The translations under genes were made by a program, and so were the position numbers. Below the pieces are notes generated by a model, which was given only the letters and a program-made list of their open reading frames with translations, was not told where the DNA came from and did no database searches. 30,605 nucleotides of DNA, from IMG/VR virus record IMGVR_UViG_3300030333_005542, positions 1 through 30,605 of that record, one strand, 5' to 3'. The DNA comes from a virus. This document shows positions 5,924-20,443 of the stretch, piece after piece; position 1 is the stretch's first letter; the number at the start of each line of letters is the position of its first letter.

Positions 5924-8900
5924 ATGTCTACAAAAAGAATTCAGCTTAATAACGTTGTTCAAAATCAGCTTCCTGGATATGTTAGATCCAACTATCCATT
6001 GGTTGCTGAATTTTTAAAGTCATATTATCAGGGACAGGAATATCAAGGTGGTCCAATTGATTTAGTTAATAATATTGATCAATATACTAAAGTTGATGAA
6101 CAAGTTGGTCTTACTGAATATGTTGGATTGGGTGCTTCTGTAGGTGTTTCTAATGATACAATTCAAGTTGATATGCAAAAAAATCCAACAGGAACGTTGG
6201 GTTTTCCAGATTCATATGGATTGATAAAAATTAATGATGAGATTATTACATATACTGGAATAACTACTTTTGCTTTTACTGGATGTATTAGAGGATTTGT
6301 TGGTGTTAGTTCATATCAAAGTGATACTAATCCTGAAGAATTAGTATTTAAATCTACAACTGCACAAAAACATGATAAAGGGACTAGCATACAAAATTTA
6401 AGTTCTCTTTTTCTTAAAGAATTTTTAGTTAAAACAAAACATCAACTTACACCTGGATTTGAAAAAAGAAAATTTTCCGAAGATCTTGATCAAAATCTTT
6501 TTATAAAACAAGCAAAAGATTTTTACTTAAGTAAAGGAACTGATAGAGGTTTTGAGATTTTATTCAAATCTTTATATAATGAAAATGTAAAAATTATAAG
6601 ACCTTCTGAGTTTCTTTTTACACCCTCTAATGCAAATTATCAGGTTACAAAGGACTTTGTTGTAGAACCAATATCTGGTGATCCAATGAACTTGGAATTA
6701 TCAACATTATTCCAAGATCCATATGAAGATAATAATATTGAGAGAGCATATGCTCCTATAACACATGTTGAGGCTATCAATGTTAGTGCAGGAAATACAT
6801 TTTATAAATTAAGTATTGATGCAGGATATAACAAAGATTCTAGAGTGGAAGGGTCTATATATGGAACTTTTTTAACTAGTCCAAGAACTAGATTAATTGG
6901 AGAAGTTGGTGCAGGTATTAGTGTTATTGATGTAGATTCAACTGTTGGATTTGGAACTACTGGAGAATTGCATTTTAAATATATTGACAATACTGTAGGA
7001 ATATCTTCATATACATCAAAAAGTTTAACTCAATTTTTTGGACTTAGTGGAATTGGTAAAACTATACTAAGTGGTGAGACTATTGGTATTAATACTTTTG
7101 CATATGGAAAATCTGTTATTGATCAAGATGAAACTATTGAAGTAAGAATTACATCAGTTATTGATACTTTTGATTATGATAATAGTAATTGTCTTTTTGA
7201 GGCGGATGATACTGTAAAAATTAAAACTTTAGGAATTGGAGATACTGGGTATAAAATTAGAGAATGGTTTTATAATATATCTCCTGTATATGAAGTTGAC
7301 AGCATTACCCTTCAAGATAGTTCTGACTGGACATATGAAATAATTTTAACTACAGATCACGACTTTAAATTGGGTGATAAATCTGTTGCTATTTTGGTTG
7401 GTAGTGATGGTAGAAATTTACCAGTATCTGATATAACGCAATTAACTTCTGCGCGTGGATTTATTATAAGGGGTCAGGGAGAAATTGATACTTCTTTAAA
7501 ATATACAGTTGAAAGGCAAATTTTAAAAGCAAATGCAATTAATTTTCCTGAAGCATCAAATTATTCTACAAATATACAAAATGTATATAAAGAAAAAAAT
7601 ACACAAAAATTACTTGTAACATCCCCATCCATCCCCACTTATGGTTCTCAAGCACTTGGAGTTAATGATGGAAAAATTATTTTTAGTGGAAGTTTTTCAG
7701 GTGATGAATTTGAAATTGTAACTAACTCAACAACAACTCCATCTGGAGTCCCCATTTTCGATCATGGATTATATACTGGTGATGCTGTTTATTATACACC
7801 ACAGATAGTTAATGATGCATATGTAGATCCTACAAGTGGATCATCACTTGACAATTTTGTTATTAAATCATCTTTAATGGATGAGGGTTTATATTTTGTA
7901 AAGAGAGTAAACAAAACTACAGTTAAATTTGCAAAAAGTGGTTCTAATCTTTATAATGGCAAATTTATTAATATTGATACTGATGGATCAAGGACTGGTA
8001 TTGTAACTGATAATAAAATATCCCCATACAAATTTAATAATAAGACTTTACAATCTCAGAAACTTGTAAGAGAAATTTCTCCCCCTGTTAATAGTGGATC
8101 TGTTAGTGAAACTGTTCCTGGACGTACTGGTATATTAGTAAATGGTGTAGAAATATTAAATTATAAATCTTTTGATCAGGTTCATTATGGAAAACTTACA
8201 GGTATAGATGTTCTTTCTGGTGGAAGAAACTATGACGTAATTAATCCACCATTTGTACATATTAAAGATTCTGTTGGTAGTGGAGCTACTGGATATGCTG
8301 CTGTATCTGGAATACTAAAAGACATTAGAATTATTGATACTGGATTTGATTATCAAGAAACACCTACGGTAAAAATTACTGGTGGAAATGGATCAGGTGC
8401 TCGTGTATCTGTAAATATGGAATCTGTAGATCATTCTGTTTCCTTTGAGGCAGATTCTCCTAGAGTGGGTCTTGGAACAACTGGTGTTTTAGCTTCTACA
8501 ATTGGATTCACTACTTATCATAAGTTTAAAAATGCAGAGCAAGTTGTATATATTACAAATAATCAAGAAGTTGTTGGTGGATTAACTACTAGTGCAACTT
8601 ATTATGCTGCGCTTGTTGGAACTGGTGGAACTACAATAAGACTTCATAAAGATGAAGCAGGTGTTCTTGCAGGAATTAATACAATTACTTTAACTTCTAA
8701 AGGTATAGGAAAGCAATTTATAAAGTCAACTGAAAAAAAATCCATAGTTGAATCTATTAATATAATTTCAGGTGGAACTGGATATCAAAACAAAAAAAGA
8801 ACCACTGTTCCTGCAGGTATAAACACAGCTTTAAATCAAATAAAGATTGAAAATCATGATTACGAATCTGGAGAGATTGTTACATATACTTGTGATGGAA

Positions 8901-11900
8901 CTCCAATATCAGGACTTACTACCTCTACTGATTTTTATGTAACTAAAGTAGATAATGATAATTTTAAATTATCAAGTGTTGGGATAGGAAGTACGGCTAG
9001 TGATTTTTATCATAAAACAAAACAATATAGATCTTTTTCTAGTATTGGTGTAGGAACTCATATTTTTAATTATCAAGATATTAGTGTAAATATTAGTGGA
9101 GATGTTGGTATTAATTCAGTAGGATCTGAAACTTTTGAACTTAAAGTTCAACCAATAATCAGAGGTGAAATAACATCTGTTCATTTATCAAATAATGGTG
9201 TTGGATATGGTGCATCTGAAATTATTAATTTTATTAGAGAACCAGAAGTAACTTTATTATCTGGATCTAATGCACAATTAACACCCATCATTAATCCTGA
9301 AGGTAAACTTAGTGAAGTTATTGTAGAAAATAAAGGTAGTAACTACAATTCACCTCCAAATTTACAAATAAATGGTGATGGAATAGGTGCTGTTATAACA
9401 CCTATTCTAAAAGTAGTTGATCTTAATGGGAATGCTTCATCAGTCGGTATTGGAACCACTATTAATTATGTTTTAGATAGTGTTAATATAATTCATGGAG
9501 GATCTGGATATTCTAGAGATAATACATCCATTGATGTTGTGAATTCTGGAACTGACTGTAAAGTAAGATCTAATATTCAAAAATGGAATGTTAATTTATT
9601 TGAGAAATATTATCAGACTGAACAAATTACTGATGATGATGGAATTATATGTGATGGTAACTTTGATCTTCAGTATAGTCACTTATATGCCCCTAGAAAA
9701 TTAAGACAAACAATTTATGCTACCAATCAAGAAGGAAAATCTTTATATGGTGAACCAGATTTAAAAAAGGTTAATGGGCAAGAAGTTATATCCGACAACC
9801 ATTCTCCAATAATTGGTTATGCATATGATGGTAACCCAATTTATGGTCCATATGGTTATATTAAGAAAGCAGGTGGTACAGTAACTCAGATGAAATCTGG
9901 GTATATTGAAGAAGCTGTCCTTAAGGAAAATAGACCACCTTTAAGTGTTTTTCCTGCAGGATTTTTTACGGATGATTATACTTATAAAGCAGTAAGTGAT
10001 GAAACTGTTCTTGATGAAAATAATGGAAGATTTTGTGTTACTCCACAATTCCCATCTGGAACTTATGCTTATTTTGCGACTATTGATGATTCTGGTTCAG
10101 AGCAGGGAGGACAATTTAATACTTATAAATTGCCAGTATTCCCTTATTTAATAGGTAAAAATTATTATTCGGCTCCAAATCAGTTTAATTTCTTAGTCTC
10201 TTCAAATCAAGATAATTATAAACTGCAAGGTAGTAAATGGGGTAGAGTTACAACTCCATATAATTTAATTCATGCTGATGAAGTATATTATCCATATATT
10301 CCATTACCTAATAAATTATCACAAACAATAGATATTGTTGCAACGAAACCAGGTTTTGTTGATAGTATTGGAATTGAGACTGGTGGTAAAAATTATAAAA
10401 TGGGGGATAAGGTAGTATTTAATAATACTGGTACTAAGGGAATGAATGCTGGTGCTAGAGTTTCATTACTTAAGGGAAAACCTGTAAGTAGTGTAAGTGC
10501 TGCAACTAGTAGTATAACAAGTGTTGAAATATACCCTTCAAGTCAAAAAGGGATTTATAGTATTGTTTCTACAGAACCTCATAATTGGGTTAATCTTGAT
10601 ATTATTACGGTTACTGGATTATCTACAACTTCTTCAGAAATTGGAGGAATTTATAATGCTGGAATAACTTCTACTAAACTTAATGTAGTTGGATTAGGAA
10701 CTACTGCAGTTGCTATAGGAACGGATGGTGTTACTGGTATAGTAACTCATTTTGATGTTCGTGGAGATTTATCAAAACTTCAATCCAATGATCTTCTTGG
10801 AATTGGAACAGAAACTATAAAGGTATTAAATATAGAACCTCTTCTTTCAAGAATTAGAGTTTTAAGAGCTGTTAATGGAGTTACAGGAGTTTCTCATACA
10901 GTAACAACTGAAATTCTTGAAAAACCTAGAAGACTTACTATTAATTCTGGATTTAGTTCAGATTATGAATATAGAGTAAATAATCAAATTTATTTCAATC
11001 CATCTGATTCAGTGGGATTGGGTACAAGATCTGGGGTTGGTATTGGAACTACAATTGCATTTAGTAATCCTGGAATTGGTATAACTCAGAAGTTTATTCA
11101 AACAAAAGCAATTTATATTCCTGATCATGGATTAAAGACAGGTGATAAACTAACTTATTCTCCTAATGGTGGAACTGGTCTTAATGTTAGATGGGATGGA
11201 TCAGATGCTGTTGATACGGGTATATCAACATTTACAGATGGCCAAACACTTTATGCTGGAGTTATCACAGAAGACTTAATAGGTATATCCACTGTTAAGG
11301 TAGGTTTAGGTAGTACGGGTACTTTTGTCGGTATTGCAAGCACACAGAGAGGTAGTACAACTGTATTCTTCTCTGGACTTGGTACTGGTGTTTATCATAG
11401 CTTCAAGACTAATTATGATGTAATTACTGGAGAAATTCGTAGAACAACTGCCACGGTTTCAACTGGTCAAAGTCATGGTTTATTGAATTATGAAAACGTT
11501 TATATGAATGTAGTTTCTGGTCTTGTAACGACTGTAACCGTTAAGTATAATGATTATAATAGGAGAATTATAATTGATCCAAAATCATTTACTGCTGCAG
11601 GAGTTAATACTACTACTAATGCAATTACAATAACTGATCATGGATATAAAACAGGAGATAAAATCATTCATACCGCATCTAGTCCTGTTGGTGGTTTAGA
11701 TGATAATGGAATTTATTATATTGTAAAAATTGATTCTAATAGGTTTAAATTAAGTCAAACTGAATATGATTCTAAAGAATCTAAACCAGTGGTTGTTGGT
11801 TTAGGGAGCACTTCTGCAGGAACAATAAATCCAATTAATCCATCAATAAAAGTATATAAAAATTCTGTAGTTGAATTTAATCTTTCTGATAGTTCATTAG

Positions 11901-14900
11901 GATATGTTTCACAATCCACTAGTTATCCAGCATTTGCTTTAAATTTCTATACTGATAAAAATTTAACACAACAGTGGAGTACCTCTCCAGAATCTTTAAC
12001 CTTTAATGTTACAAGAAATGGGACTGTGGGAGTAACAACTGATGCTAAAGTATCTTTAGCAGTTACCAAAGATATTCCAGAAACACTATATTATACTTTA
12101 GACCCTATTATCGAAGGTACAATACCCACTGTAAAAAGAGAAGTAATTGTTGATTCTGAAGTTATTTCTGGAAATGAAATAGAACTATCTGAGAGTGATT
12201 TTAATGGAAAGCATAGAGTTACAATAGGTGGTACAAATCAATTTGAATATACTTTAAGAGAACCTCCAGAAAGGCTTTCTTATGGAACAACTTCCTTTGT
12301 ATCTTATGAAACTGATAGTCCAACTGCGTATGGTGCTATTTCTAATTTTGAAATAACTGATCGTGGAAAAAATTATTATTCACTTCCTGGAATTTCAACA
12401 ATTAATAGTGAATTAGGTAGTAGTGCTATTATTGAAGCAAAAAGTACTTCAATAGGAAAAATTAAAAAAGTAAAAGTTAAGGATATTGGATATGATTTCC
12501 CATATGATAGTACAATAAAACCAGATACTGCATTACCGCAGATTATTAAGATAGATGCTTTAATGTCTCTTGAATCTGTTGGAATAACTTCTTTTGGAAG
12601 AGGATATATTTCTGCACCAGATTTAATTCTTATTGATGGAAAAACTAATAAACCAGTCTTAGATGCTGATTTAAAATATACATTAGGAAATCCTAATATA
12701 GAAATTTTAAACAATACTAAGGGTGTTAGTAATGCACCTGCTAAAATTATTACTGATAGAAATAGTAATGGTATTGGAATTGCTACTGTTGGATTTAATA
12801 CAGAAAATTATGACGTAACAGTAGAACTATCTGTTGGATTTAGTACTGCCACTACTTTCCCAATTGCAGTTGGTGATAAAGTATTTGTAGAAGGTGTTAG
12901 TGTAGGAATTGGTACATCATTTAAAGGATATAATTCTAAGGATTATGATTATGAACTCTTTACCATAACAGCAGTTGATGAAAATTATGGTGGTATTGGA
13001 ACTGTTACATACAATCTTTCTGATTACTTTATAGGATTAGCTCCTGGAACTTCAGCTGGTGCATTTGATTTTGTTAATTCTTCTGGAAGAATTGTTCCTG
13101 AGAAGTTTATGCCAACTTTTGATATTAAATTAAAACCTAATGATTTTGCTAAAGGTGAGGTAGTTGAAGGATCAATTAGTAGCACTAGAGGAACTGTTCA
13201 AAATTGGAATCCAAATACAGGTATTTTAAGAGTTACTAATACTGATGGATTTGTAACTAATGATGTTTTGAAAGGGTTGAGTTCTGGAACTCAAGGACTT
13301 GCTTCATCTATAAAAACTTTTGATTCATATATTAAACTAAATGCAACTTCTAGGGTAGAAAAAGGACACGAAACTGATTCTGGATATCTTAATACCAATT
13401 TACAAAGAGTTCAGGATAGTGATTATTATCAAAATCTTTCATACTCTATAAGCTCTAGAGTTGATATGGAAACATGGAATGATCCTGTTTCTTCTTTAAA
13501 TCATACAATAGGATTTAAGAAATTTTCTGATTATCAGTTAGAATCAACTGCTTCTGTTAGAGTTGGATTATCTACAGAATTATCTGATGTTGCTGCAGTT
13601 AATGACATATATTCTACTGGTAATTTAAATTGTGTATATGATTTTGATTTGGTAACCGAGAATGCTTTACAAGTTAATGTAGATGATGCAGTCTCAGACG
13701 AAATAACCTTCTCAAATAGAATACTACAAGATTATACCGAATCTGTTGGAAATAGGGTTGTATCAATAGATGACTTTAGTGGAACATTTAATAGCAATCC
13801 AAGAGCAACTAGATTTAGCACTGTTGCTAGATGGACATTAGCAGAAAGAAGAGCAGTAAAATATTTTACATATGTTAGAGATAAAAGATATGGTGGTCAA
13901 AGACAATTTATGATTGTTGATATTATTCATGATAGTAATTTTGGATATATTAATCAATACGGAAGAGTTGAGACAACTTATGAACAAGGTGATTTTGATT
14001 TTGCTATTTCTGGTAATGATGGAATATTAAACTTCTATCCACAAAAATATTCTGTTAATGATTATTTTGTTTCTAGTATTTCCTACAATCTTGATGATAA
14101 TTTATTGAGTGTTGGTAGTACTGTAATTGGTAGAACTTTAATTGATTCTGAAAGTGTTACAATTGGTACTGGAACAGGTACAACAACAATTGTAGGTATT
14201 GCAAGTACTTATAGGTCTGCCAAAGTAATTATTAATATTAATCCTGACATTAGTGGTAAAGAGCATGAATATAATCAATTAAATATCATCCATAATGGTG
14301 ATGAAGTTGATTTGATGGAATATGGTAGATTGACTACTGTTAACGATCCAGATTCTATTAATGGTTTAGGAACTTATCGTGGTTATATTGATGGAACAGA
14401 ATTAAAAGTTGATTTTATTGCCAATTCAAATGTTGGTATAGGAACAACTGGTGTTATTAATACTATTCTTGTTGGTATGGCAGATTCTGCTTATACTGGT
14501 ATTGGAACAGTTGATCTTAAACATGCAAGATTAGAATCTAGAACAACAGCAATTGATTCCTCATCTTCTCCTGGTGTTACTACTGTTAGTCAGTGGCCAG
14601 TTGAATATGAAGCTGGTTATGGAGTTATTCAGGTTACTGACGCTACAAATCAAGTCTATGAAATGTTTGAGTTTGCTGCTATCACTGATTACGTATCAGA
14701 TACTTCAACAGAAACCTATGATATAGAATTTGGTAATGTTGCATCTGGAGTTTCTCCTAGTGGACTTGGAACATTCGGAACAAAAGTATCTTCTGCAGGA
14801 ACTGTTTCATTACTCTTTACTCCCGTAGCAAGTATTAATACGCAAGTTAATGTATACTTAAATGCTCAAAGAATTCAGGATGATACTAAGGATACTATTA

Positions 14901-17900
14901 GTTTTAATAATGGAGCCATAGAAAGTGGATTTGGTGAATATACTGGAACTGAAAGTGCTGTATTAAGAGCATTTGGATTATCACATCAAACTGATCCAAT
15001 TTTCAGAAAACCATTTGATGGTAGTAGTACTGGTGTTTTAAATTTAGATACCAATTCTATCAATCTTCCAAATCATTTCTTTGTTACTGGTGAAGAGCTT
15101 GTTTATACTAATCCTGGTAGTGGTTATACTATGGCAATTGGAGTAGCAAGCACTGATGGATTTGTTGGTGTTGGTACAACTACTTTATTACCAAGTAAAG
15201 TATTTGCCGTTAAGATTGATGATGAAACCATTAAGCTTGCAGAAAGTGCTGCTAAGGCACTTCAGACCGTCCCAGAGGTGGTTGATCTTACAAGTGTGGG
15301 TATTGGAACCTCTCACTGTTTTAATGCTATTAATCAGAATAAGAAAGCACTAGTTACTTTAGATAATATTATTCAATCTCCCATCGTATCTACTTCTGTA
15401 ACCACACATTTAGCAGACATTGTATATACTACTTCTGATCTTATTGAATTTGCAGGAATTACTTCATTCTATGGTGGTGATTTGATTCAGATTGGTAATG
15501 AAATTATTAGAATTGATGCATTGGGTATTACTGGAAATCCAAATCTTATAAGAGTTAGAAGACCTTGGGCAGGAACTACTTTAGCAGGATATGGGACAGG
15601 TACTTTAGTCACTAAGGTAGATGGTAATTATAATATTGTTGATAATACAATACATTTTGTAGAAGCACCTTATGGTAATGTTCCTTTAAGTACGTCTACA
15701 AACGCACCTGATTCAAGAGATTGGGTAGGGATTGCAACTGGGTCTAGTTTTGAAGGAAGAATATTTATGCGTTCTGGTATTCCTGATACTGCAAATGAAC
15801 CATATTATAGAAATTATGTTTTTGATAGTTTATCTGCTCAATTTACAGGAAAGAAATCTGAGTTTGTTTTAAAATCTGATGGATCTAATGTTTCTGGAAT
15901 TGTTACAGATACTGCTATTGTTCTTATTAATGATGTATTCCAAACTCCAGGATCAACCAATGAGTTTACAATAACAGAAGATTCTACTGTTGGTGTTACA
16001 ACAATTTCATTTACTGGAACAGCAAGTTCTACAACTGATGTAAATGTTGGTAATTTACCTAAAGGTGGAATAATAGTCTCTGTTGGTTCTAGTGAAGGAT
16101 TTGGATATCAACCTTTAGTTGCTGCTGGTGGAACAGTCACTGTTGCTGCTGGTGGAACCATTAAATCTATTAGTATTGGTAATACTGGTTCTGGTTATAG
16201 AGCAGGTATTCAAACGGTTAATGTTGGTATACAAACTCTAAGTAGAGTTGGTACAAATGTAATTGGAATAGGAACAGCACAAATTACAACTGGACATATT
16301 ACAGGAATTGCTGTTACTAATGCAGATCATATTTTCTATTCACCTAGAAAAGTTGCAAATGTTGGATACAGTTCAGTTACTGGTATTTCTACAATAACAA
16401 CTCAAACTGATCATGGATTATCATCTGGTGATGAAGTAGTATTATCAGGTATTGCATTTACTTGTGATTACTCTCCTAGAATTGGTATTCATACTGCGGT
16501 CTATGATAATGTTTCTGGTATTATGACAGTTACGACTGCTGTTGGTCATGGATTATCAACCAGTGGACAGAAGAGTGTTGTTATCTTTACTGGATTAGCA
16601 TTTACATGTGGTTTAGATGGTGGAGCATCCACTCATTACTATCCAAGAGGTCAAGATCCTGCATATCACACAGCAGTTAAGATTACTAAGGATGGTACTA
16701 AGAAAACCATAACAAATGCAGTTTATAATCCTACTACAGGTATTATGACTTGCACATCTGCTAGTCATGGAATCTCTAATGGTGATAAAGTTAAATTTGG
16801 ACTTAATTCATTAACATTTACTTGTGATAAAGATGATCATGCTACTTCACACACTTATCCTAGAGAATCAGATACTATTGCTGGTAAGTGGATAACTGTT
16901 TCTAACGTAACTACAAATACTTTTAGAGTTAATGTCCTTCCAATAGCACCTTCTACTAATACAGGAATTCACACTTTTGTTAGCGCACTTGCTGATGGAC
17001 TTACTCATAATGATGGAGATATTGCAATTGATGTAGGATATGCTGCTAATGGAGATCAGTTTACTCATCAGTTTGTATCTGCTACTTCTGGTGCTGTAGT
17101 TGCTGGTGGGTCTTATGCACATAGGTATGTGGGTTCTACTTCTGGTGCTGTAGTTGCTGGTGGTAACTATGCTCACACATTTGTTAGTGCTACTGCTGGT
17201 GGTGTAACTGTTACTGGAATAGGCACTACAACCCCTACAGATGCTACCTACGATGCTTCAACGGGTGATTTAGTACTAACTATACCTTCACACTCTTATT
17301 CAACTGATGATACGGTTGGAATTTCTACTAATGCTATAACATTTAAGTGTGCATTTGATAGATATACTTCTAATCATGCATATCCTCGTAATACGGATCC
17401 TATAATAGGAATAACTACCGCAATTACTTCTAAGACTGCCGATACAATTACTATTAACGTTGGTATGTCTACTTTGGTTAGTTACAATGTTTCTGATGCA
17501 ACTTACAACCCAGATCAAGGCGAACTTACATTAACTATTGGTAGTCATAGTTTACGTGGACCAAGTTACTATACAGTAACAGATGCTGAGTATAGTCCAA
17601 CAACTGGTATTATGACTTGTACTGTTGGATCGGGTGTTACCTTATCAAGTGGAGAGAAGATTAGGTTTGCTTATGATTCTTTAACCTTTACTTGTGCTAA
17701 GGATGGACATGCAACAAATCATACTTATCCAAGATCTGGTGCTGGTGGTACAGCAGATGCTGTAGGTGCTAGATGGCTACCAATTTCTGGTGTAACTACT
17801 AATCAGTTTGAGGTTCAGGTTTTAGATACTATTCCTTCATCAAATACAGGTGTTCATACCTTTGTTTCAGCAACTACAGGTGGACTTATTGTTGCTGGTG

Positions 17901-20443
17901 AATCTGTTAAGGTTAATCAGGATAGTTTGAAATTTAGATGTGAGATGGATGATTATGCAACGGTTCATACTTATCCAAGATATACTGATCCAGGGTTTAG
18001 TACTTCTTTAGGAATTACTTCAACAACACCTACTTCTATTACACTTAATGTAGGAACATCTAGAACTACTAATTATAGTATTTCTACTGCTGTATATAAT
18101 GCTTCTGTAGGTATATTGACAGTAAGTATTGGTGCAGGTCATAGTTTACTTAAGGGACAAAGTATTGGTATAAAAACTGAATCTTTATCCTTTAGATGTT
18201 CAAGAGATAATTATGCAAGTGTACATAGATATCCTAGAAAACCAGATCCTTATTATACAGGAACACAAGTTACTGCTGTTGGTGTAGGAACTACTACATT
18301 TGAGTGTAATATTGGAGTATCCACTGTCCCAACTTTCTATGTTGGATTGGGATCTGTTCAGTCTGCAATTATAGCTCCTAGATTAACTAATAATTCTGGA
18401 AGCAAGTTTGATGTTGCAGCAAACGGAAGTGAAGTTTTACGTGTTATTGATAGTAAGACGTTTGAAACTCAAACTGGAATATCAACTAGAAATCATGAAT
18501 ATGCTAGGGGTGGAGTTGTTGAAGGATATAATAAAGTAGTATTTGATGATCCATTATCATATTCTGGTATTGGTCTAACCTATAGTAACACATCTGCTGG
18601 AATTGGAGATGGTGCTACTATTGATGTTGTTGTTGGTCAAGGTTCTAGTGTAGTTCAATTTACTATTCAGAATACTGGTAGTGGTTATGGTAATCTTGAA
18701 AAATTAACAGTTCCTATTGGTGGTACTACTGGTATTCCAACTGATCCAAGTAAAACTTTTACGGAGTTTATAGTTGATATTGAAAAAGTCTTTAGTGATG
18801 AATTTACTGGATGGTCTGTAGGTCAATTGGAAGTTCTTGATAATATTGAAAGATATATTGATGGATCTAAACAAGAGTTCCGATTATCACTTAACAATGA
18901 AATAGTTTCTATTGTTGCTAAAAAGGGATCTAAGATTAATGTTCAAGATCTTCTATTAGTATTCGTTAATAACATTCCTCAAGTTCCTGGTAAAGGATAT
19001 AAGTTCCCTGGTGGTAGTGTAATAACATTTACAGAAGCACCTAAGATTGGTGATACAATAGAGATTATTTTCTATAAGGGAACTGGTAGTCAGGATGTTG
19101 TTGAGAGGAAAATTATTGAAACTGTAAAACAGGGTGATGAATTGACCATTGGACGTTTGCAAACTCAAGATACTTGGTTGCAAGAAACTACAAGGGTTCC
19201 TATTAGTGTTGATTCTACTGATATTGTTTCAACTCCACCATATTATGGTCCAGGTAATAGTTCAAATCCTGAGTTAGAAAGACCAATTAATTGGTGTAGA
19301 CAAACTGAAGATAAAATTATTAATGAGAAGGGTGTGGGTAAAGATAGAGAACTCTATGAACCAGTTATTAATCCTTATTCACCTATTATTAAGTCTGTTG
19401 GAATAGGTTCAACTGTCATTTATGTAGAAAGTGTAAGACCATACTTTGATCCATATGATGAAGTTGATAATGTAGCACCAACATCTGATGACTTTACTTT
19501 CCAGAAGAAAGTTAAGATAATCTCTCAGGAGGATAAGATTGGTGCTGCTGGTACTGCAATCGTATCTGGTCTAGGAACAATTTCTTCTGTTGCTATTTCT
19601 ACTGGTGGTGTTGGTTATAGTACTGCTACAGTTAGTTTTGCTACTACGTCATTAAGTGGTAATGAAGTTGGTGTTGGTACAACATCTACTCTTGCCTACG
19701 GTACTCCAATAATTGGTGCTGCTGGAACTATTACTGGTATCGCACTTACAAGTGTTGGTGCTGGATATACATCATCTAATCCACCTATGGTTCTTATCAG
19801 TCCTCCTGTTTGGTCTGAAGAAGAAAATAAAGTTGATTACTATCAAGGAGATTCTGGTATTATTGTTGGATTTGGTACTACTACAATTGGAGCTGGTTCA
19901 ACTAACTATCAATTAATATTTGACTTACATATTCCTCTTACATCAGATTTAAGAGATTCTAATATTACTGGTACTGCAGTTACTATTAGTGGAATATCTA
20001 CTGGTGATTTCTTTATAGTTAACAACTCTACAGTTGGTAGTGCAACTACATCAATTAATTCTGTTGATACTGGTGGTGCTGTTATTGGAGTGGGAACTCA
20101 ATTCCTAAATAACGTTTATGAAGTTAATAATTATGAAATAGTTCAAGCTCCAACTGGAGTGGGAACTACAGGTGTTGGAATAGGCACAACTCATCTTAAT
20201 AGGGTGTTTGTTAAAGTAACTAACTTTAATACTTGGAGTGGTCAATGGCCATCTTTCAGTGGTGCTGGTATTCAAACTGGTAATTATTTTGGATCATATA
20301 GTTGGGGTAAAGTTAATTTAACTTCCCGAACTGAGAGTAATACTTATACCGCATATACTTTAGGAGGAACAGGTGGAATTTCTACTTCCCCAGTAGTAAG
20401 AAGATCTGCTTCCCTTAAATATAAGCAATATAAAACTCCTTGA
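5924..20443 (+). CDS. giant modular baseplate protein in the gp7 position
   Basis: A single uninterrupted 4839-aa frame lies between gp6 and gp8, where T4 has gene 7 (about 1030 aa). The N-terminus (STKRIQLNNVVQNQLPGYVR to about residue 270, with AKDFYLSKGTDRGFEILF) is the conserved cyanophage-type anchor, probably docking on the wedge. The rest is beta-rich and modular: at least six HGLxTGDxVxY modules (about 612-690, 864-933, 973-1050, 1729-1803, 1901-1971, 3045-3133); many GxGY...G(S)GA hairpin modules; a YHYH-like domain (about 1290-1415); a plastocyanin-like stretch ending DIPETLYYTLDP (about 1975-2065); QDSDYYQNLSYSISS (about 2497-2511); and a Cys/His repeat block (3483-4146). The conserved C-terminus contains NPELERPINWCRQTEDKI and LKYKQY. 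I infer a peripheral baseplate or fibre-like role. The annotation VrlC-like is used for similar proteins. Confidence 0.85.
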   Translation: MSTKRIQLNNVVQNQLPGYVRSNYPLVAEFLKSYYQGQEYQGGPIDLVNNIDQYTKVDEQVGLTEYVGLGASVGVSNDTIQVDMQKNPTGTLGFPDSYGLIKINDEIITYTGITTFAFTGCIRGFVGVSSYQSDTNPEELVFKSTTAQKHDKGTSIQNLSSLFLKEFLVKTKHQLTPGFEKRKFSEDLDQNLFIKQAKDFYLSKGTDRGFEILFKSLYNENVKIIRPSEFLFTPSNANYQVTKDFVVEPISGDPMNLELSTLFQDPYEDNNIERAYAPITHVEAINVSAGNTFYKLSIDAGYNKDSRVEGSIYGTFLTSPRTRLIGEVGAGISVIDVDSTVGFGTTGELHFKYIDNTVGISSYTSKSLTQFFGLSGIGKTILSGETIGINTFAYGKSVIDQDETIEVRITSVIDTFDYDNSNCLFEADDTVKIKTLGIGDTGYKIREWFYNISPVYEVDSITLQDSSDWTYEIILTTDHDFKLGDKSVAILVGSDGRNLPVSDITQLTSARGFIIRGQGEIDTSLKYTVERQILKANAINFPEASNYSTNIQNVYKEKNTQKLLVTSPSIPTYGSQALGVNDGKIIFSGSFSGDEFEIVTNSTTTPSGVPIFDHGLYTGDAVYYTPQIVNDAYVDPTSGSSLDNFVIKSSLMDEGLYFVKRVNKTTVKFAKSGSNLYNGKFINIDTDGSRTGIVTDNKISPYKFNNKTLQSQKLVREISPPVNSGSVSETVPGRTGILVNGVEILNYKSFDQVHYGKLTGIDVLSGGRNYDVINPPFVHIKDSVGSGATGYAAVSGILKDIRIIDTGFDYQETPTVKITGGNGSGARVSVNMESVDHSVSFEADSPRVGLGTTGVLASTIGFTTYHKFKNAEQVVYITNNQEVVGGLTTSATYYAALVGTGGTTIRLHKDEAGVLAGINTITLTSKGIGKQFIKSTEKKSIVESINIISGGTGYQNKKRTTVPAGINTALNQIKIENHDYESGEIVTYTCDGTPISGLTTSTDFYVTKVDNDNFKLSSVGIGSTASDFYHKTKQYRSFSSIGVGTHIFNYQDISVNISGDVGINSVGSETFELKVQPIIRGEITSVHLSNNGVGYGASEIINFIREPEVTLLSGSNAQLTPIINPEGKLSEVIVENKGSNYNSPPNLQINGDGIGAVITPILKVVDLNGNASSVGIGTTINYVLDSVNIIHGGSGYSRDNTSIDVVNSGTDCKVRSNIQKWNVNLFEKYYQTEQITDDDGIICDGNFDLQYSHLYAPRKLRQTIYATNQEGKSLYGEPDLKKVNGQEVISDNHSPIIGYAYDGNPIYGPYGYIKKAGGTVTQMKSGYIEEAVLKENRPPLSVFPAGFFTDDYTYKAVSDETVLDENNGRFCVTPQFPSGTYAYFATIDDSGSEQGGQFNTYKLPVFPYLIGKNYYSAPNQFNFLVSSNQDNYKLQGSKWGRVTTPYNLIHADEVYYPYIPLPNKLSQTIDIVATKPGFVDSIGIETGGKNYKMGDKVVFNNTGTKGMNAGARVSLLKGKPVSSVSAATSSITSVEIYPSSQKGIYSIVSTEPHNWVNLDIITVTGLSTTSSEIGGIYNAGITSTKLNVVGLGTTAVAIGTDGVTGIVTHFDVRGDLSKLQSNDLLGIGTETIKVLNIEPLLSRIRVLRAVNGVTGVSHTVTTEILEKPRRLTINSGFSSDYEYRVNNQIYFNPSDSVGLGTRSGVGIGTTIAFSNPGIGITQKFIQTKAIYIPDHGLKTGDKLTYSPNGGTGLNVRWDGSDAVDTGISTFTDGQTLYAGVITEDLIGISTVKVGLGSTGTFVGIASTQRGSTTVFFSGLGTGVYHSFKTNYDVITGEIRRTTATVSTGQSHGLLNYENVYMNVVSGLVTTVTVKYNDYNRRIIIDPKSFTAAGVNTTTNAITITDHGYKTGDKIIHTASSPVGGLDDNGIYYIVKIDSNRFKLSQTEYDSKESKPVVVGLGSTSAGTINPINPSIKVYKNSVVEFNLSDSSLGYVSQSTSYPAFALNFYTDKNLTQQWSTSPESLTFNVTRNGTVGVTTDAKVSLAVTKDIPETLYYTLDPIIEGTIPTVKREVIVDSEVISGNEIELSESDFNGKHRVTIGGTNQFEYTLREPPERLSYGTTSFVSYETDSPTAYGAISNFEITDRGKNYYSLPGISTINSELGSSAIIEAKSTSIGKIKKVKVKDIGYDFPYDSTIKPDTALPQIIKIDALMSLESVGITSFGRGYISAPDLILIDGKTNKPVLDADLKYTLGNPNIEILNNTKGVSNAPAKIITDRNSNGIGIATVGFNTENYDVTVELSVGFSTATTFPIAVGDKVFVEGVSVGIGTSFKGYNSKDYDYELFTITAVDENYGGIGTVTYNLSDYFIGLAPGTSAGAFDFVNSSGRIVPEKFMPTFDIKLKPNDFAKGEVVEGSISSTRGTVQNWNPNTGILRVTNTDGFVTNDVLKGLSSGTQGLASSIKTFDSYIKLNATSRVEKGHETDSGYLNTNLQRVQDSDYYQNLSYSISSRVDMETWNDPVSSLNHTIGFKKFSDYQLESTASVRVGLSTELSDVAAVNDIYSTGNLNCVYDFDLVTENALQVNVDDAVSDEITFSNRILQDYTESVGNRVVSIDDFSGTFNSNPRATRFSTVARWTLAERRAVKYFTYVRDKRYGGQRQFMIVDIIHDSNFGYINQYGRVETTYEQGDFDFAISGNDGILNFYPQKYSVNDYFVSSISYNLDDNLLSVGSTVIGRTLIDSESVTIGTGTGTTTIVGIASTYRSAKVIININPDISGKEHEYNQLNIIHNGDEVDLMEYGRLTTVNDPDSINGLGTYRGYIDGTELKVDFIANSNVGIGTTGVINTILVGMADSAYTGIGTVDLKHARLESRTTAIDSSSSPGVTTVSQWPVEYEAGYGVIQVTDATNQVYEMFEFAAITDYVSDTSTETYDIEFGNVASGVSPSGLGTFGTKVSSAGTVSLLFTPVASINTQVNVYLNAQRIQDDTKDTISFNNGAIESGFGEYTGTESAVLRAFGLSHQTDPIFRKPFDGSSTGVLNLDTNSINLPNHFFVTGEELVYTNPGSGYTMAIGVASTDGFVGVGTTTLLPSKVFAVKIDDETIKLAESAAKALQTVPEVVDLTSVGIGTSHCFNAINQNKKALVTLDNIIQSPIVSTSVTTHLADIVYTTSDLIEFAGITSFYGGDLIQIGNEIIRIDALGITGNPNLIRVRRPWAGTTLAGYGTGTLVTKVDGNYNIVDNTIHFVEAPYGNVPLSTSTNAPDSRDWVGIATGSSFEGRIFMRSGIPDTANEPYYRNYVFDSLSAQFTGKKSEFVLKSDGSNVSGIVTDTAIVLINDVFQTPGSTNEFTITEDSTVGVTTISFTGTASSTTDVNVGNLPKGGIIVSVGSSEGFGYQPLVAAGGTVTVAAGGTIKSISIGNTGSGYRAGIQTVNVGIQTLSRVGTNVIGIGTAQITTGHITGIAVTNADHIFYSPRKVANVGYSSVTGISTITTQTDHGLSSGDEVVLSGIAFTCDYSPRIGIHTAVYDNVSGIMTVTTAVGHGLSTSGQKSVVIFTGLAFTCGLDGGASTHYYPRGQDPAYHTAVKITKDGTKKTITNAVYNPTTGIMTCTSASHGISNGDKVKFGLNSLTFTCDKDDHATSHTYPRESDTIAGKWITVSNVTTNTFRVNVLPIAPSTNTGIHTFVSALADGLTHNDGDIAIDVGYAANGDQFTHQFVSATSGAVVAGGSYAHRYVGSTSGAVVAGGNYAHTFVSATAGGVTVTGIGTTTPTDATYDASTGDLVLTIPSHSYSTDDTVGISTNAITFKCAFDRYTSNHAYPRNTDPIIGITTAITSKTADTITINVGMSTLVSYNVSDATYNPDQGELTLTIGSHSLRGPSYYTVTDAEYSPTTGIMTCTVGSGVTLSSGEKIRFAYDSLTFTCAKDGHATNHTYPRSGAGGTADAVGARWLPISGVTTNQFEVQVLDTIPSSNTGVHTFVSATTGGLIVAGESVKVNQDSLKFRCEMDDYATVHTYPRYTDPGFSTSLGITSTTPTSITLNVGTSRTTNYSISTAVYNASVGILTVSIGAGHSLLKGQSIGIKTESLSFRCSRDNYASVHRYPRKPDPYYTGTQVTAVGVGTTTFECNIGVSTVPTFYVGLGSVQSAIIAPRLTNNSGSKFDVAANGSEVLRVIDSKTFETQTGISTRNHEYARGGVVEGYNKVVFDDPLSYSGIGLTYSNTSAGIGDGATIDVVVGQGSSVVQFTIQNTGSGYGNLEKLTVPIGGTTGIPTDPSKTFTEFIVDIEKVFSDEFTGWSVGQLEVLDNIERYIDGSKQEFRLSLNNEIVSIVAKKGSKINVQDLLLVFVNNIPQVPGKGYKFPGGSVITFTEAPKIGDTIEIIFYKGTGSQDVVERKIIETVKQGDELTIGRLQTQDTWLQETTRVPISVDSTDIVSTPPYYGPGNSSNPELERPINWCRQTEDKIINEKGVGKDRELYEPVINPYSPIIKSVGIGSTVIYVESVRPYFDPYDEVDNVAPTSDDFTFQKKVKIISQEDKIGAAGTAIVSGLGTISSVAISTGGVGYSTATVSFATTSLSGNEVGVGTTSTLAYGTPIIGAAGTITGIALTSVGAGYTSSNPPMVLISPPVWSEEENKVDYYQGDSGIIVGFGTTTIGAGSTNYQLIFDLHIPLTSDLRDSNITGTAVTISGISTGDFFIVNNSTVGSATTSINSVDTGGAVIGVGTQFLNNVYEVNNYEIVQAPTGVGTTGVGIGTTHLNRVFVKVTNFNTWSGQWPSFSGAGIQTGNYFGSYSWGKVNLTSRTESNTYTAYTLGGTGGISTSPVVRRSASLKYKQYKTP
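9790..10165 (+). other. YHYH-type domain within the giant protein
   Basis: Residues about 1290-1415 contain SPIIGYAYDGNPIYGPYGY, then FVTPQ-like GRFCVTPQFPSGTYAYF and PVFPYLIG. The GYAxDGxPIYGP and TPxxPxGTYAYF signatures are those of the YHYH domain (PF14240), found in secreted bacterial proteins and large phage structural proteins. Its biochemical role is not established. Coordinates are approximate. Confidence 0.7.
16372..18360 (+). repeat. six-copy Cys-Asp-His-YPR repeat block in the giant protein
   Basis: The motif F-x-C-x2-D-x2-[AT]-[ST]-x-H-x-Y-P-R recurs with Phe at residues 3560, 3632, 3807, 3922, 4004 and 4090; examples are FTCDKDDHATSHTYPR and FRCSRDNYASVHRYPR. A degenerate copy without His (FTCDYSPR) is at 3512. 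Each copy is preceded by a strand of the type AVYNPTTGIMTCT and a HGL/SGD turn. The Cys, Asp and His are invariant in the six full copies. Confidence 0.85.
17072..17233 (+). repeat. tandem 18-residue (54-bp) repeat, three units
   Basis: Three consecutive units read FVSATSGAVVAGGSYAHR, YVGSTSGAVVAGGNYAHT and FVSATAGGVTVTGIGTTT. The first two share 28 identical bases (17082-17109 and 17136-17163), so the duplication is recent compared with the other modules; the third unit has diverged. Confidence 0.85.

Follow-up and report, generated by a model that had tools for sequence, protein, structure and literature searches.

A Cysteine-Containing Repeat Domain of Marine T4-like Phages, Arrayed in a Giant gp7-Position Baseplate Protein

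The protein in which we analyzed a repeated cysteine motif has its closest described counterpart in gp7 of phage T4 (5iv5, 5hx2, 9f4a), a monomer of which each baseplate holds six copies (PMC3004832). The gene order gp25-gp6-gp7-gp8 is common to T4 and to the window analyzed here (the whole of a 30,605-base IMG/VR virus record), whereas T4 gp7 contains 1032 amino acids and the window protein 4839, including a YHYH domain and an array of repeat units. For the unit itself, the nearest named systems are the End_beta_barrel of phage endosialidases (with the phi92 endosialidase 4hiz) and the E1_FCCH domain of ubiquitin-activating enzymes. Unlike the former, the unit carries a Cys...YPR..DP signature, occurs in tandem and comes without a sialidase propeller; with the latter it would share a fold at most, ubiquitin chemistry being absent from the unit and the motif loop being, as far as tested, specific to the phage unit.

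At the sequence level the family is already represented by PHROG 1276, 5342, 701 and 18802 (virion structural, tail fibre or unknown function), each of which was matched by 107 to 111 of 114 units. These clusters neither name a domain nor describe a motif or mechanism, and they mix the unit with many others in giant proteins. Searches of the literature found no description of the motif, and publications on Ferrojan (iron in phage tails), followed up as a lead, yielded no link to it. Although tail and baseplate proteins of marine T4-like cyanophages commonly contain the domain, no function has been stated for it and we found no Pfam or NCBIfam family that covers it, in agreement with a preliminary description of the window, which recognized no named family for the motif.

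A repeat array within a probable gp7

The 4839-residue ORF matches phrog_2885 (baseplate wedge subunit, E = 0). Homologues of gp25 and gp6 are encoded upstream, and gp8 and a DUF4815 protein downstream (Pfam/PHROG), as in T4-like phages. The N-terminal 892 residues match cyanophage genes annotated as gp7 or baseplate wedge initiator, and a profile made from the first ~700 residues and two relatives matched solved T4 gp7 with an E value of 3.5e-5, over only ~35 residues. Because the ORF lies between gp6 and gp8, and because of the N-terminal profile match to T4 gp7, we assign it as gp7, the baseplate wedge protein, of a marine T4-like (Kyanoviridae-type) phage, rather than as a fibre. The fibre trimer that had been envisaged as the setting of the motif is not supported for a gp7, given the monomeric T4 counterpart (PMC3004832). 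The YHYH domain (PF14240, E = 8.5e-21) lies at 9785-10087 (aa 1288-1388) of the same protein. A pair of neighbouring 2OG-Fe(II) oxygenase genes occupies 1115-2298, upstream of the baseplate genes.

The motif F-x-C-x2-D-x5-H-x-YPR has six exact, in-frame matches in this ORF, at residues 3560, 3632, 3807, 3922, 4004 and 4090, and none in 100 dinucleotide shuffles, so that the six copies first noted are confirmed; from first to last base they span 16601-18238. As had also been stated, Cys is rare in the protein (19 in 4839 residues, six of them in the motif), and a seventh, at residue 3514, belongs to the FTC of a degenerate copy that precedes the six and lacks the loop. The motif proved to be the core of a longer unit, the six copies aligning over ~83 residues and sharing, in addition, Y-x-P-x-T-G before the motif and DP plus a closing strand after it. 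The copies share only 49-58% DNA identity (120-nt core) and their codons vary, which indicates that the constraint acts on the protein. The features are as follows.

5924-20443 (+): giant baseplate wedge protein at the gp7 position, 4839 aa, holding the array (ORF; phrog_2885; neighbours)
16322-18535 (+): accessory insert with the array, aa 3467-4204 (flanks colinear by blastp in five relatives)
16358-16474 (+): degenerate copy, loop missing, then ...FTCDYSPR (profile match, 1.7e-9)
16493-16714 (+): unit 1, motif at 16601-16648 (motif and profile match)
16712-16942 (+): unit 2, motif at 16817-16864 (motif and profile match)
17066-17227 (+): linker from unit 2 to unit 3, with three H-x-[FY]-V-[SG] repeats (direct repeats D4/D6; translation)
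17237-17485 (+): unit 3, motif at 17342-17389, modelled with AlphaFold2 (motif and profile match)
17495-17560 (+): half unit with the first strands only, DATYNPDQGELTLTIGSHSLRG (profile match, 8e-5)
17579-17827 (+): unit 4, motif at 17687-17734 (motif and profile match)
17840-18076 (+): unit 5, motif at 17933-17980, with an HTFVS-type stretch in place of the first strands (motif and profile match)
18086-18337 (+): unit 6, motif at 18191-18238 (motif and profile match)

In blastp comparisons, gp7 of Bellamy, S-SM2, SynMITS9220M01, P-TIM68 and S-B05 aligned on both sides of approximately residues 3467-4204, and none of these five relatives has a repeat unit at that position. The array is, therefore, an accessory insert. 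The nearest relative found, the single-cell virus AG-345-E15, is 81% identical; in it the array begins and then the contig ends. Two metagenomic relatives (L341 and L345) have the six motif copies in unchanged order; their unit 4 has Lys where the window has His. We regard the unit as an interchangeable module at the host-contact end of the tail: some phages have it as a gp7 insert and close relatives lack it. Because of this difference, its role is directly testable on natural pairs. In S-SSM7 (L002, 34-19128) and Sf-FS3 (L004, 90-17619), the gp7-like N-terminal part and the array are encoded by two ORFs separated by a third gene; in the window they are fused into one ORF.

Compared in order with their orthologues, the units of the window show 54-73% identity; compared among themselves they mostly show 35-54%, units 2 and 4 being the most similar two. 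Since a unit generally resembles orthologous or foreign units more than the other units of the array, the array is old, and recent local duplication was ruled out as the origin of the six copies. The linker at 17066-17227 is a recent local duplication within this otherwise old array: its repeats, which read HQFVSATSG, HRYVGSTSG and HTFVSATAG, are 54-nt tandem repeats, two of which have one fully identical 27-nt stretch in common. HTFVS-like stretches also follow units 2 and 4.

Distribution of the unit

The domain is carried by marine T4-like phages, singly or in tandem, in baseplate and tail-fibre proteins. Using tblastn, matches to the array were obtained in 292 phage records, every one named as a cyanophage or marine virus, the matching genes being called gp7, short or long tail fibre, structural or hypothetical protein. 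Further loci were collected by scanning IMG/VR and GTDB contigs with degenerate DNA patterns; the first set of loci held ~900 copies, and in total there were at least 2086 profile matches, representing at least 1443 distinct units. An ORF piece contained from one to 30 units, and tandem units were usually two to four residues apart.

The genome contigs (GTDB) were also checked for cellular copies. The domain occurred there in long, phage-like ORFs, except for a single marginal match (E = 0.013) in an ORF of 244 residues (L150). In an isolate assembly of Nonlabens xiamenensis (L152), a 188-kb contig encodes an array within an ORF of 7352 residues. This candidate cellular copy was set aside, because gp6-, gp7-, gp8- and DUF4815-like ORFs adjoin it; judged by its sequence and gene order, the contig appears to be a co-assembled T4-like phage.

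Conservation, coupling and predicted fold

Across 1443 distinct units (numbering positions within the unit), Cys38 was conserved in 98.6%, the Pro of YPR in 99.2%, Tyr in 90.5%, Arg51 in 90.3%, Asp54 in 90.1% and Asp41 in 86.3%, whereas position 47 was His in 61.3% and Lys in 27.8%. As a control for bias, loci were also picked without the motif, by another stretch (YDPTTGxM); these gave very similar values (Cys 98.5%, His 59%, Lys 28%), and a half-profile blind to the Cys recovered it in 576 of 587 units. The invariance of Cys, Asp, His and YPR that had been described thus applies, as regards His, to the six copies in the window but not to the family. Such a near-invariant Cys in Cys-poor phage proteins is a sharp constraint. 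No second conserved Cys column was found, no other column containing Cys in more than 35 of the 1443 units, and isolated units retained the Cys in six of six cases, which speaks against the suggestion of a bond, at least as a disulfide within the unit.

Two pairs of positions varied together. By weighted counts, 95% of the units with His also had Asp41, as did 81% of those with Lys and 34% of the remainder; Arg51 and Asp54 were both present in a weighted count of 801 and both absent in 67, with 35 mixed. Among 686 cluster representatives, the association of Asp41 with a basic residue at position 47 gave p = 4e-25 and that of Arg51 with Asp54 p = 3e-45 (these p values ignore remaining relatedness). 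Of 194 multi-unit ORF pieces, 150 contained both units with His and units with Lys. These associations, together with the co-occurrence of His and Lys, point to two ion pairs rather than to a metal site. In short-loop units Asp was lost and His sometimes lost, with the Cys kept, and 37% of cluster representatives retained the Cys without the Asp and His pair. The Cys was lost in none of 440 representatives with His and in 14 of 246 without it (p = 5e-7); since the loss was seen only where His was absent, Cys and position 47 are not independent.

Mean-field covariation (effective number 912) gave a register of 35-48 and 37-46 for the hairpin of strands 4 and 5, with couplings between Arg51 and Asp54 (11.9), Tyr49 and Asp54 (8.7) and Asp41 and Thr45 (7.1); Cys38 was coupled to His47, Pro50 and Arg51. 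Combined with secondary structure, this would put residues 34, 36, Cys38, 45, 47 and 49 on a common face and Asp41 near them. The preliminary description considered a metal site at Cys, Asp and His; the inferred register, with Cys38, His/Lys47 and Tyr49 together and Asp41 close by, agrees with their proximity, but such a site is not supported.

AlphaFold2 predicted a small all-beta fold, in which the Cys ends strand 4 and is followed by a short helical turn, with pLDDT values of 89.9 for unit 3 alone and 87.2 for the pair of units 1 and 2. Searches of BFVD returned 26 viral matches at E<=0.001, those with names being cyanophage proteins, mostly structural or tail, whereas neither model had a match in the PDB at that threshold. 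For both models the most probable PDB match was the phi92 endosialidase 4hiz (probabilities 0.80 and 0.92), a weak one with a TM score of about 0.5 at best and E > 0.3, and the ubiquitin E1 proteins UBA1 and UBA6 recurred among the weak matches. With Pfam, nine of 114 units gave weak matches to End_beta_barrel (PF12195; best 0.0024), the whole protein scoring 14.1 bits against a gathering score of 35 bits, and 13 of 114 gave weak matches to E1_FCCH (PF16190; best 1.6e-4), with none reported for the window protein. Because the weak structural and weak Pfam signals name the same two groups, a small barrel of the endosialidase/E1_FCCH type is likely, although we do not claim membership of either family. 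Searching PDB sequences with the unit yielded no convincing relative; one candidate, iota-carbonic anhydrase (2.3e-4), was rejected, as no stretch passed on its own.

Possible roles of the array and of its cysteine

The reading that we prefer, to which we would give a probability of roughly 0.6, is that the motif is the core of an all-beta, small-barrel-like domain of ~83 residues, in which its residues build loops, the array being an add-on for host contact or spacing. Strand 4 would end in the Cys, whose side chain would lie on the hairpin's inner face (strands 4 and 5); after it, the Asp41-His/Lys47 pair would hold the loop and the Arg51-Asp54 pair the YPR-x2-DP turn. We propose that these residues, being ion-paired, build the loop rather than a metal site or a bond. 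The evidence favours a structural core Cys beneath ion-paired loops, but a thiol that is simply packed does not usually call for conservation as high as 98.6%, which leaves room for a chemical role.

The array itself most probably projects from the periphery of the baseplate as a string of modules for host-surface contact or spacing, whose variable outer residues would touch a glycan or protein of the cell surface. A contact role is suggested by its location, its accessory insertion and the distinctness of its unit positions. In support of such a role, mutations of host adaptation in the cyanophage S-TIM4 are dominated by tail and baseplate genes (PMC6224464), and in the K1F endosialidase loops of the barrel are hotspots of host discrimination (PMC12632334). 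Neither study names the array; ORF_101 of S-TIM4 carries units, and the main text of PMC6224464 does not mention it.

Whether the array is a passive spacer, with copy number setting reach and no contact with the host, is a question about its role, and such a spacer is compatible with the structural reading of the motif. The close spacing of tandem units, the range of copy number and the absence of the insert from relatives are all consistent with it. However, the greater identity of units to their orthologues in order than to one another means that the positions have each stayed different, a distinction unnecessary in a plain spacer, and we regard the passive spacer as a possible but rather improbable account.

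Alternatively, the Cys might be a working thiol, forming disulfides between proteins, either inside the baseplate or when the host is contacted, and so stabilizing the array or locking attachment. The adjoining basic residues (His/Lys47 and Arg51) could lower its pKa, and its couplings to His47, Pro50 and Arg51, its loss only where His is absent and its near-invariance in a Cys-poor setting (0.4% Cys outside the units) would all fit, as would the precedent of a gp10-gp7 disulfide suggested for T4 (PMC3004832). A conserved partner Cys is lacking, though, and isolated units keep theirs; covariation puts the side chain on the inner face, and the proteins that carry units differ in kind, with both odd and even numbers of units. 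On this evidence a working thiol is unlikely. Still more doubtful is the broader proposal that every unit has a chemically active Cys (a thiol switch, an inter-protein crosslink or, in the His-type subset, a metal site) that acts when the cyanobacterial surface is contacted; if it were true, the several units of each gp7 would together give one baseplate dozens of active Cys sites. Binding of a metal ion by Cys38, Asp41 and His47, for which the invariance of the three residues in the window and their placement in the inferred register had spoken, is very improbable: Lys replaces His in 28% of units, both residues occur within one protein and are exchanged at the orthologous unit 4, and the retention of Cys without Asp or without the Asp and His pair means that the three are not lost as a set.

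A natural test of the role of the Cys is offered by five loci (L220, L236, L273, L287 and L289), in some of whose units Thr replaces the motif Cys and Tyr replaces the His (TTAQDGG[AS]TQYAYPR). In these units Asp and YPR are kept, and a Cys is found instead in the last strand (ITC).
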